Shown here: positions 36,781 to 41,082 of the stretch, one piece after another
How positions within the stretch are numbered: position 1 is the stretch's first letter
How the letters are laid out: each line of letters begins with the position of its first letter
Source: Candidatus Coprousia avicola
GTDB lineage: Bacteria; Actinomycetota; Coriobacteriia; Coriobacteriales; Coriobacteriaceae
DNA: 42,621 nucleotides
Direction of reading: 5' to 3'
NCBI GenBank assembly: GCA_018715125.1
Contig: DVMF01000087.1
Span: forward strand, 1-42,621
The notes under the pieces: model-generated
What the model saw: only the letters and a program-made list of their open reading frames with translations
Database searches by the model: none
What the model was told of the DNA's origin: nothing
Program-made: the position numbers and the translations under genes

Positions 36781-37030
36781 TCTCATGCCGGCAGGTGCGT
36801 CCTGCGCTGACGCGTGGTAATAGGGCTGTCTTGGAAACACGGGTTGACAGTTGTGGGGCAGCTGTCAGCTCGCGTTTTCTGCGCAAGGGTACAGATTGGT
36901 GTCTTGGGCTATGACGGGCCCTGCTCCATGGTGGGCATACGCAACTTCGCCCTTTCGGGCACCTGTCGACATCATGCAAGCCCTGTACCTGCGGGAACTA
37001 TTTGGCGAGATAGAAATAACCCCCATGTAA

Positions 37031-37080
37031 GGTATACACAACGTGCTGAGGTGTACACGACTCGGTTGTTTGTGTATACC
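37031..37080. promoter_or_regulatory. Cluster of three GTRTAYAC sites
   Basis: GGTATACACAA (37031-37041) and its exact complement (37070-37080) flank a central palindrome GTGTACAC (37051-37058). Read as 8-mers, GTATACAC, GTGTACAC and GTGTATAC are spaced 19 and 22 bases apart, about two helical turns, as for a cooperatively bound repressor. No gene start is close by; the whole gap 36781-37324 contains no protein gene I can support. Confidence 0.5.
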
Positions 37081-37240
37081 AAACGGGAAGGGGTGTCGTG
37101 CGCGCGGCAAGGGCTCGGTAAGCGTGCGGCAAGTAAGTGGTCGCTTGCATTCCAACGGTGGGTGCAGCTTGGCGCATCGCCCCGGCAGAGTGGTCCCCTT
37201 GCCAGAGCCCGTGTATGAGCACGCGATGTTGGAATCCAAA

Positions 37241-37311
37241 AGTTCAAAATAAATTGAACTTTGAACTCAATTTGTGCCATACTGGCACGAAGCGTTCAAT
37301 TTAAATTGAAC
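37241..37311 (+). promoter_or_regulatory. Operator-promoter region of the HTH-aminotransferase gene
   Basis: Two sites of the form GTTCAA-N6-TTGAAC: AGTTCAA...TTGAACT at 37241-37260 and the perfect 18-base palindrome GTTCAATTTAAATTGAAC at 37294-37311. Between them lies GTGCCA-N3-TGGCAC (37274-37288), overlapping a possible -10 CATACT (37279-37284) with TTGAAC 19 bases upstream. The second palindrome ends 14 bases before the start codon, touching the ribosome-binding site GAGGAGG. The most likely ligand is the HTH domain of the downstream gene itself. Confidence 0.7.
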
Positions 37312-37324
37312 TTGAGGAGGACCG

Positions 37325-38911
37325 ATGCCTGACCGAACTCTGTTCTCGGAGCGTCTGAGCGAGGCGATGGCCCGCGCCGGCTTAAAGCAGGCGGACCTCA
37401 TCCACAGTGCCTCCCAGCGCGGAAAGAAGCTCGGCAAAAGCCAGGTCAGCCAGTATGTGAGCGGCAAAACGGTGCCGCGGCGCAACGTCGTCGCGCTTCT
37501 CGCGGATATCCTCGCGGTTGACGAGGATTGGCTGGCAGATGGCGCCGCAATGCCGGCGGCGCATGCACCCGCAACGCCGGCGGCGCACGCGCCCGCAGCG
37601 CAACCGGCGCCCGCCGCGCGAGCTACCGCGCGGTCTGTGGCCGCTGCAACACCTGCCTCTTCTCAACAAGCTACCTCGCAAAGGAGTACCCCCATGCGTC
37701 AGTTCACCAAGTCTGCCAAGCTCGATAACGTTCTCTACGACGTCCGCGGTCCGGTGGCCGACGAGGCGGCCCGTATGGAAGACGAGGGCCTGCGCATCCT
37801 CAAGCTGAACATCGGCAACCCGGCGCCCTTCGGCTTCCGCACGCCCGACGAGGTGGTGACCGACATGCGCCAGCAGCTTCCCGAGTGCGAGGGCTACTCG
37901 GATTCCAAGGGTCTCTTCTCGGCGCGCAAGGCCATCATGCAGTACGCGCAGCTCAAGCACATCCCCAACGTGTCGATGGACGGCATCTACACGGGCAACG
38001 GCGTCTCCGAGCTCATTCAGCTGTGCATGAACGCCCTGCTCGACACCGGTGACGAGATCTTGATCCCCAGCCCAGATTACCCGCTGTGGACGGCCTGTGC
38101 CACGCTTGCCGGCGGCACGCCCGTGCATTACGTGTGCGACGAGGAGGCGGAGTGGAACCCCGACCTCGCCGACCTGGAGTCCAAGATCACGAGCAACACC
38201 AAGGCCATCGTCATCATCAACCCCAACAACCCCACGGGCGCCGTCTACCCGCGCGACGTGCTCGAGCAGATCGTCGAGATCGCGCGCAAGCACCAGCTCA
38301 TGATCTTCTCGGACGAGATCTACGACCGCCTCTGCATGGACGGCATCAAGCACATCTCCATCGCGAGCCTCGCGCCCGACCTGCCGTGCGTGACGTTCTC
38401 CGGTCTCTCCAAGAGCCACATGATCGCCGGCTACCGCATCGGCTGGATGATCCTCTCGGGCAACAAGCGCTGCATGCGCGACTTCATCTACGGCATCAAC
38501 ATGCTCTCCAACATGCGCCTGTGCTCCAACGTGCCGGCGCAGTCGATCGTGCAGACCGCGCTCGGCGGCTACCAGAGCGTGGAGCGCTACGTGGAGCCGG
38601 GCGGGCGCATCTACGAGCAGCGTGAGTACGTCTACAAGGCGCTGAACGAGATCCCTGGCATCACGGCCGTCAAGCCCAAGGCGGCGTTCTACATCTTCCC
38701 CAAGATGGACGTGGAGCGGTTCAACATCACCGACGACGAGCAGTTTGCGCTCGACCTGCTGCATGAGAAGCGCATCCTCATCACGCGCGGCGGCGGCTTC
38801 AACTGGAACAAGCCCGATCACTTCCGCATCGTCTACCTGCCGCGCATGGAGGTGCTGCGCGAGGCGCTCACCGACTTGGCCGACTTCTTCGCCCACTACC
38901 GCCAGGCATAG
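37325..38911 (+). CDS. XRE-type DNA-binding domain fused to an alanine-type aminotransferase
   Basis: 528 residues. Residues 1-75 form a helix-turn-helix (LFSERLSEAMARAGLKQADL; GKSQVSQYVSGKTVPRRNVV). Residues 76-122 are an Ala/Pro/Thr/Gln linker. From Met124 the protein is a complete class I aminotransferase close in pattern to AlaA/AlaT: LNIGNPAPFGF, NPNNPTGAVYP, DEIYDRL, the PLP lysine in SGLSKSHMIAGYRIGW, and RGGGFNW. GAGGAGG precedes ATG 37325. A second, textbook AAAGGAG lies seven bases before Met124, so two proteins are likely. The design recalls MocR/GabR regulators, but these use a GntR-type domain. Probable autoregulation by the palindromes upstream. Confidence 0.9.
   Translation: MPDRTLFSERLSEAMARAGLKQADLIHSASQRGKKLGKSQVSQYVSGKTVPRRNVVALLADILAVDEDWLADGAAMPAAHAPATPAAHAPAAQPAPAARATARSVAAATPASSQQATSQRSTPMRQFTKSAKLDNVLYDVRGPVADEAARMEDEGLRILKLNIGNPAPFGFRTPDEVVTDMRQQLPECEGYSDSKGLFSARKAIMQYAQLKHIPNVSMDGIYTGNGVSELIQLCMNALLDTGDEILIPSPDYPLWTACATLAGGTPVHYVCDEEAEWNPDLADLESKITSNTKAIVIINPNNPTGAVYPRDVLEQIVEIARKHQLMIFSDEIYDRLCMDGIKHISIASLAPDLPCVTFSGLSKSHMIAGYRIGWMILSGNKRCMRDFIYGINMLSNMRLCSNVPAQSIVQTALGGYQSVERYVEPGGRIYEQREYVYKALNEIPGITAVKPKAAFYIFPKMDVERFNITDDEQFALDLLHEKRILITRGGGFNWNKPDHFRIVYLPRMEVLREALTDLADFFAHYRQA
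37680..38911 (+). CDS. Internal start giving a free alanine-type aminotransferase
   Basis: AAAGGAG (37680-37686), seven bases, then ATG 37694 in the same frame as the fusion gene. Translation from here would give a 405-residue enzyme starting MRQFTKSAKLDNVLYDVRGP, the exact extent of ordinary AlaA/AlaT enzymes, which convert pyruvate and glutamate to alanine and 2-oxoglutarate. The bases just before the site are less GC-rich than the rest of the linker, as if this had been an intergenic region. I treat the short form as probable, not proven. Confidence 0.6.
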
Positions 38912-40038: not shown

Positions 40039-41082
40039 ATGACGACCGAGTCGACCGGCGCGGCTCTGTCGCCGTGCGCATCCACCGAGCGCCCCGCTCC
40101 GGTTCTCGCGCTCGTCATACCCTGTTTTAACGAGGCGACCGTGCTTGCCGGCACGGCGCCTCTTCTTTTGGATGCGATGGCGCGCCTCGTGACCGCGGGC
40201 TCTGCGGCGCCCGAGAGCTATCTGGTGCTGGTGGACGACGGGTCGGTCGACGACACGTGGGCGGTCATCGGCGCGCTCGCCGCCGCGGACCGGCGCGTAC
40301 GGGGCGTGCGGCTCAGCCGCAACTGCGGGCAGCAGGCCGCGCTCATGGCGGGAATCGACGAGGTGCGCGGTGCCTGCGACGCCGCCGTGACGCTCGATGC
40401 CGACGGGCAGGACGACCCTGCCGCCCTCGCCGAGATGGTCGCGCGGTACCGGGAGGGCTACGACGTGGTCTTTGGCGTGCGCTCCGACCGCTCCTGTGAC
40501 GGCGCTCCCAAGCGCATGACGGCCCGCGCGTTCTATCGCCTCTTGGCGCTCCTCGGCGCCGAGGTCGTGCCCGACCATGCCGACTTCCGCCTTATGGCGG
40601 CGCCGGTCATCGCCGGCATCGCGTCGTTTCAGGAAGTGAACCTCTACCTCAGGGGCCTTGTGCCCCTCGTGGGGTTTCGCAGCTGCGAGGTGCGCTACCG
40701 CCGTCTGCCCCGCCGGGCGGGGCGCTCCCATTACGGTGCGGGGCGCATGGTCGGGCTTGCCCTCGACGGCGTGACGTCGCTCACCATCCGGCCCATCCGC
40801 ATCATCACGCTCGTCGGCCTCGTCATCGCCCTCGGCAGCGCCCTCGGCATCCTCTGGGCCGTCGCCACGGCGCTTTCCGGACGCGCGGTCTCGGGGTGGG
40901 CGAGCATGATCGTGGCCATCTTCTTCTTGGGCGGCGTGCAGCTGGTGAGCCTGGGTGTCATCGGCGAGTACGTGGGCAAGACGTATCTGGAGGCCAAGCG
41001 GCGCCCGCGGTACCTGGTTGCGGAGCGCACGCAGGGGGACGCAAAAGACGCGTCGAGCCACCGGTCCACACAAAACGCATGA
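40039..41082 (+). CDS. Family 2 glycosyltransferase, membrane-anchored (GtrB/dolichol-P-sugar synthase-like)
   Basis: 347 residues. The GT-A catalytic domain has VIPCFNEATVL, the nucleotide-sugar VDDGSVDDTW, LSRNCGQQAALMAGID, and the metal-binding DADGQDDP. Two membrane helices near the C-terminus (residues about 255-280 and 290-318: IITLVGLVIALGSALGIL; MIVAIFFLGGVQLVSLGV) match the GtrB/DPM type that loads a sugar onto undecaprenyl phosphate. It starts directly after the galU stop codon with no gap and no separate ribosome-binding site, so translation is coupled; its sugar may come from UDP-glucose. No terminator is evident after it. Confidence 0.93.
   Translation: MTTESTGAALSPCASTERPAPVLALVIPCFNEATVLAGTAPLLLDAMARLVTAGSAAPESYLVLVDDGSVDDTWAVIGALAAADRRVRGVRLSRNCGQQAALMAGIDEVRGACDAAVTLDADGQDDPAALAEMVARYREGYDVVFGVRSDRSCDGAPKRMTARAFYRLLALLGAEVVPDHADFRLMAAPVIAGIASFQEVNLYLRGLVPLVGFRSCEVRYRRLPRRAGRSHYGAGRMVGLALDGVTSLTIRPIRIITLVGLVIALGSALGILWAVATALSGRAVSGWASMIVAIFFLGGVQLVSLGVIGEYVGKTYLEAKRRPRYLVAERTQGDAKDASSHRSTQNA

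Follow-up and report, generated by a model that had tools for sequence, protein, structure and literature searches.

Gene and promoter elements at the locus

The window, by which we mean the whole stretch of 42,621 nucleotides analyzed, encodes a protein in which an HTH domain is followed by a linker and an aminotransferase domain. The gene, its promoter elements and a proposed second start within it are as follows.

37242–37259, no strand: site 1, GTTCAAAATAAATTGAAC (GTTCAA-N6-TTGAAC, two inverted half-sites), exact match
37254–37259: possible −35, TTGAAC, coinciding with the right-hand arm of site 1 and spaced 18 bp from the −10, placed by eye
37261–37266, plus strand: TTGAAC, a further half-site (the fifth), following the right half of site 1 at a 7-bp tandem distance, read from the sequence
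37274–37288: palindrome GTGCCA-TAC-TGGCAC, covering the probable −10 box
37278–37283, plus strand: CATACT, probable −10 box of the extended type, a TG standing one base before it, placed by eye
37294–37311, no strand: site 2, GTTCAATTTAAATTGAAC, a perfect 18-bp palindrome just past the expected transcription start, exact match
37314–37320, plus strand: Shine-Dalgarno sequence of the long form, GAGGAGG, read from the sequence
37325–38911, plus strand: gene for the 528-aa HTH-aminotransferase (long form)
37340–37540, plus strand: HTH domain (residues 6–72), a relative of the N-terminal domain of TP901-1 CI
37556–37693, plus strand: Ala/Pro-rich linker, predicted to be disordered, its length varying among orthologues
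37680–37686, plus strand: internal Shine-Dalgarno sequence, AAAGGAG, with an in-frame ATG at 37694–37696, the start of a proposed short form
37694–38908, plus strand: alanine-type aminotransferase domain

With the −10 box placed at CATACT, the possible −35 is overlapped by site 1, and the expected transcription start falls shortly before site 2. An earlier reading made from the sequence only had proposed two GTTCAA-N6-TTGAAC sites, one of them a perfect 18-bp palindrome, and exact matching confirmed both; the fifth half-site goes unmentioned there. The separation of 53 bases given there has to be corrected to a start-to-start distance of 52 bp, and site 2, which was said to touch the ribosome-binding site, adjoins it with no overlap, ending 2 bp short of the Shine-Dalgarno sequence.

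The genome-wide search that the same reading had suggested was carried out for the GTTCAA-N6-TTGAAC pattern, which was found at exactly two places in the 2.42-Mb genome, both in the HTH-aminotransferase promoter, with no match for the reversed pattern. At up to two mismatches, 26 places were obtained in the genome vs. 15 for the reversed control, and 7 out of 100 shuffles of the window reached its own two matches, which leaves the exact sites as the only informative ones. The exact motif was present in two of the nine genomes of the genus searched, which counts against the pair as such.

The encoded protein comprises the Pfam domains HTH_31 and then Aminotran_1_2. In the AlphaFold model, linker residues 78–141 are below pLDDT 50, and the full-length model is weak in the aminotransferase part, with several stretches below the same value. 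The closest solved relative of the aminotransferase domain is E. coli AlaA (4cvq, E 4.7e-162), which has this whole domain in common with the protein but is itself devoid of a DNA-binding domain. K363, aligned within LSK, is invariant in 40 orthologues, and the NCBIfam alanine aminotransferase model gave 359 bits, below its 534-bit cut-off. Judged by sequence and fold, the enzyme part is of the AlaA type, with the catalytic lysine kept. As for the HTH, its solved relatives at E <1e-6 are four TP901-1 CI sequences, and its fold matches at E <0.001 are four TP901-1 CI structures, one of them complexed with an operator half-site. The recognition-helix residues K38, S39, Q40, S42, Q43 and Y44 do not vary across the 35 HTHs compared.

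Half-sites upstream of orthologous genes

Orthologous loci were collected from one public-genome scan (80 loci) and from a class-wide search with a match in 124 of 246 genomes (40 loci), which together with the window amounted to 121 loci: 112 fused, eight unfused and one dropped. The latter, L145, was considered as a split HTH gene and rejected, the linker there being an assembly gap of N, and was left out of the 112. The 40 genomes picked for reading included every match without the N-terminal part, apart from G056, together with diverse others; the genomes being hand-picked in this way, the ratio of fused to unfused genes is no census. At least six records occur twice among the 112 loci (L157/L047, L158/L006, L159/L019, L160/L023, L161/L015 and L166/L050), and 77 distinct arrangements and 23 diverse loci were used on this account; related species among the 112 are likewise non-independent. 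Start codons were chosen by a scripted Shine-Dalgarno rule, which for L150 selected the codon one before the ATG. The hosts of the fused loci are Collinsella-related gut bacteria. When 198 genomes from across the phylum were sampled, 26 gave a match; the HTH-enzyme fusion was seen in none of the 17 that lie outside the class, their matches starting only at residue 76 or later.

Within the 200 bp upstream of the gene, all 112 fused loci carry two to seven exact copies of the half-site TTGAAC/GTTCAA (two in 2 loci, three in 6, four in 63, five in 31, six in 8 and seven in 2), with the consensus AAATTGAACTT in the orthologous promoters. In the first 81 loci, 362 half-sites were counted in 16,200 upstream bases vs. 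268 in 602,733 bases in the remainder of these loci. Among the 102 hexamers of the same composition (complements merged), GTTCAA/TTGAAC came first with 491 occurrences in the 112 regions, followed by AGTTCA (366) and AAGTTC (236), both of which overlap GTTCAA in a shifted frame; the next hexamer was found 39 times. Half-site orientation and spacing differ from species to species. The conservation upstream of orthologues that the sequence-only reading had set as a check therefore holds for the half-site (112/112) and not for the N6 palindrome, which is exact in 5 of 112 loci, with two copies in 4, and was rejected as the conserved unit. The third palindrome, GTGCCA-N3-TGGCAC, is indeed present between the two sites, as had been noted, but is not conserved: it occurs in 2 of 112 promoters, those of the window and its near-copy L005, and was discarded as an element. 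Both palindromes are local features, and the half-site is the conserved unit.

Distances between neighboring half-sites cluster at 11–12, 19–22, 31–33 and 41–42 bp, in addition to a 7-bp tandem that appears in 15 of 56 distinct arrangements (81 loci). At a period of 10.5 bp, the distances of 9–45 bp in the 77 distinct arrangements gave a mean vector of 0.51, compared with a 99.9th percentile of 0.23 for random sets; in the 23 diverse loci it was 0.38, with p 0.001 at 10.5 bp and 0.007 when the best period was taken from 8–14 bp. This 10.5-bp phasing is compatible with binding on one face of the helix, in line with the cooperative geometry that the sequence-only reading had suggested.

The half-sites were also positioned relative to the −10 by a heuristic scan, in which 100 of 110 loci scored at least 7.5 and which misplaces the −10 in the subgroup of the window, where a different, probably wrong, choice was made in the near-identical L005. 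In the scored loci, reverse half-sites lie 18–19 bp upstream of the first base of the −10 (39 times), and forward half-sites lie 26 bp upstream (20 times) and 13–16 bp past it (74 times). Half-sites thus often bracket the −10, which is the layout of a repressor covering both sides of the polymerase site.

The internal start is located where unfused genes begin, or two to four codons earlier in five loci. An ATG or GTG was found at this point in 109 of 112 fused genes, L149, L165 and L168 being the exceptions. A core Shine-Dalgarno five-mer precedes it in 90 of the 109, compared with 12.7 ± 2.4 when these peptides are recoded at random with synonymous codons, with 150 of 1601 other in-frame ATGs and with 84 of 112 main starts; these numbers are inflated by relatedness, and the count is slightly favored because, where two internal starts were candidates, the one bearing a Shine-Dalgarno sequence was preferred. 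The internal Shine-Dalgarno sequence occurs in all three reading registers, over differing peptides (QRST, KEEP, EELP and REVP), so what is kept seems to be the nucleotide signal. The start and its Shine-Dalgarno sequence suggest a second product, an enzyme without the HTH. The start may merely have been inherited from before the HTH was joined, but its upkeep within a variable linker argues for use.

Half-sites elsewhere and in unfused orthologues

In the window's genome, AATTGAAC occurs 20 times: three times in this promoter, twice in the promoter of a mobile element and 15 times singly. The pair on the mobile element (C45:8368–8395) lies in a promoter that separates an integrase-like gene from an unrelated XRE gene, and was not included among the targets. 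A different palindrome, ATTGAACGGTCAATATATACCGTTCAAT, is located at the same mobile-element promoter (L093 1503–1528, corresponding to G000:C45:8368–8395).

Across 40 genomes, AAATTGAACTT was found at 50 places, 38 upstream of the gene, two within its frame (G183 and G038) and 10 elsewhere, while its reversed control gave six. Exact AAATTGAACTT is absent from 11 of the 40; five of these are fused and have no copy even at the promoter of the gene. Inverted pairs, GTTCAAT-N4-34-ATTGAAC, were detected at 38 places in 41 genomes; by hand count 27 of these belong to the gene and 11 lie elsewhere, and the reversed control gave one place. Nine of the 11 were read: three are coding, three fall within longer inverted repeats, two share an orthologous intergenic region in G205/G076 and one is intergenic elsewhere. 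Pairs in the opposite orientation occupied 23 places, 14 at the gene and nine elsewhere (hand count), with two for the reversed control. No large regulon was found by these half-site and pair scans in the window's genome and the 40–41 genomes. The half-sites are essentially confined to their own promoter, which leaves one main target; off-gene pairs outnumber the reversed controls, so a few extra targets are possible in some species. A three-box arrangement, GTTCAATAATGTAAATTGAATAT.GTAATTGAAC, lies in the orthologous intergenic region of G205/G076 (L195 1291–1324 and L196 1272–1305); this region, upstream of a lipoprotein-like gene, is a possible second target in that genus.

No half-site was found within 250 bp of any of the eight unfused orthologues, and a search of these eight genomes for the HTH yielded none at E 1e-4. 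The HTH was found exactly once in each of the four fused genomes searched. In a midpoint-rooted tree of 55 aminotransferase domains, five unfused rows group together outside the fused group and three lie within it. The tree needs three changes between fused and unfused states, and well-supported branches force at least two losses. As an example, the unfused G220, with no sites, is sister to the fused G239, which has five sites within 250 bp.

Candidate autoregulation, alternatives and related systems

The proposal of the sequence-only reading that the encoded HTH-aminotransferase regulates its own gene is well supported by the presence of half-sites in 112 of 112 fused and none of the eight unfused loci, and further by the disappearance of the HTH from the unfused genomes, the near-confinement of the sites and an AGTTCA core common with the TP901-1 operator. 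Site conservation, joint loss with the HTH, homology with TP901-1 CI and confinement make autorepression by the encoded protein, as predicted here, likely. We consider it probable that the sites form an autoregulatory operator array, at which the long form is predicted to repress its own promoter and the short form to loosen this repression.

Each HTH would grip one AAGTTCAATTT half-site. Fold-type I PLP enzymes on their own are homodimers or tetramers, according to PMC3870968, and the aminotransferase part is expected to dimerise; a long-form dimer would thus present two tethered HTHs. Such a dimer could bridge two half-sites on the same helix face at variable spacing, and several dimers might fill the array. 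Occupation of half-sites over the −35 region and just past the −10 would exclude the polymerase and thereby hold down the gene. The short form made from the second start would supply enzyme, and mixed dimers, with their weaker DNA binding, would loosen repression. Much more tentatively, the locus could be a one-gene homeostat, in which a repressor-enzyme made from the first start and a bare enzyme made from the internal one meet as mixed dimers and their ratio, together with the active-site state (PLP/amino form, alanine/pyruvate bound), would set the number of HTHs that reach the phased half-sites; it would be a MocR-like regulator of independent origin, combining the head of a phage CI with a functional AlaA-type enzyme, and would have essentially one target, itself.

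Activation would make use of the same contacts, if the long form bound the sites and switched the promoter on, or did both by ligand, like some aminotransferase-like regulators. MocR-type regulators are described in PMC5320631 as changing their DNA-binding mode with PLP, and half-sites lie upstream in many loci; however, those over the −35 region and 13–16 bp past the first base of the −10 fit polymerase exclusion, and we regard activation as unlikely. The half-sites might also be bound by a separate regulator of amino-acid or nitrogen metabolism, with the fused HTH acting elsewhere or not at all. Half-site binding by the encoded HTH is a step that we infer, and the divergent XRE promoter on the mobile element of the same genome has two copies of AATTGAAC, both of which speak for a regulator of this kind. 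Yet the sites vanish with the HTH in all eight unfused cases though the enzyme gene stays, they are nearly confined to one promoter, unlike those of a wider regulator, and the closest solved relative of the HTH uses an AGTTCA core too, which renders a separate regulator quite unlikely.

That the palindromes act as RNA, with a leader hairpin beside the Shine-Dalgarno sequence, GUUCAAUUUAAAUUGAAC, controlling translation, is very improbable. The leader of the window is able to fold into this hairpin (−8.9 kcal/mol for 56 bases), but half-sites also lie upstream of the −10, their orientation and spacing vary by species, the hairpin requires the N6 arrangement present in 5 of 112 loci, and the sole Rfam match in the window is a tRNA at 789–861. 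We give next to no credence to the sites being LexA/SOS boxes, GAAC-N4-GTTC: this pattern occurs upstream in 21 of 112 loci, chiefly in the C. aerofaciens group, but neither in the other 91 nor in the promoter of the window, whose sole copy is at 41081, so an SOS box at this promoter is refuted. In the promoters of the C. aerofaciens group (L057–L076), it is the half-site spacing that yields the SOS-like pattern, which could mislead annotation.

Autorepression through a fused aminotransferase invites comparison with the MocR/GabR/PdxR regulators, which likewise consist of an N-terminal DNA-binding domain, a linker and a C-terminal part of aminotransferase fold, here of fold type I. MocR operators, according to PMC5320631, consist of two to four boxes of mixed orientation, in which direct repeats are separated by two or three turns of the helix, and the promoters studied here have a similar multi-box, mixed-orientation and helically spaced design of two to seven half-sites. 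In place of the GntR-type winged HTH, however, the protein has a phage-CI-type XRE HTH (Pfam HTH_31) and is therefore not a MocR; it differs further in being an AlaA relative with the conserved lysine and in having an internal start. By analogy, it may work like a MocR regulator.

The CI repressors of TP901-1 and phi13 resemble the protein in an HTH homologous by sequence and fold, of the CI N-terminal type, a flexible linker and the AGTTCA core. They differ behind the linker, where they have an oligomerisation domain and the fusion has an aminotransferase instead. The TP901-1 CI half-site consensus is given as AGTTCAYR (PMC8516035), OL as AGTTCATGAAACGTGAACT (PMC4941734) and the OR half-site as AGTTCACG (PMC7250872). 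The core amounts to six bases in common, the next position being Y in the phage and A here; phage OL is AGTTCA-N7-TGAACT, whereas the window has N8 between the AGTTCA arms and other species vary widely.

No description of such an HTH-aminotransferase fusion was found in a literature search of open-licence papers. Trigger enzymes such as PutA are metabolic enzymes with a DNA-binding domain that repress their own gene. Both the enzyme and the DNA-binding fold of PutA are different, and in the HTH-aminotransferase a catalytic control of the predicted self-repression would be putative. If the proposed autoregulation is true, it would represent a second, independent evolutionary route from aminotransferase to transcription factor, in a protein whose catalytic residues are conserved and whose DNA-binding head has a phage relative of which the operator is known. 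This rule can be tested directly in Coriobacteriia; PMC9734109 describes transformation, reporters and genome editing for them. The natural HTH losses, matched by losses of the sites, are ready-made comparisons, and the two-start design clearly predicts mixed-dimer behavior.

Upstream of the promoter, the stretch at 37031–37080 contains two members of a repeat family, GGTATACACAA and the complementary sequence. This family has 49 exact genome matches on 11 contigs, with none for the reversed control, and is arrayed at intervals of about 39, 42 and 100 bp; four further copies were inspected. When the 37020–37240 stretch was searched in 20 relatives, it matched in G002 only. An inverted repeat, ATTCCAAC (37149–37156) and GTTGGAAT (37228–37235), encloses 71 bases. 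Its left arm reads ATTCTAGC in L005, where pairing is kept via G-U wobbles. The 37149–37235 inverted repeat might form a structured RNA or mark where a small element ends on either side.
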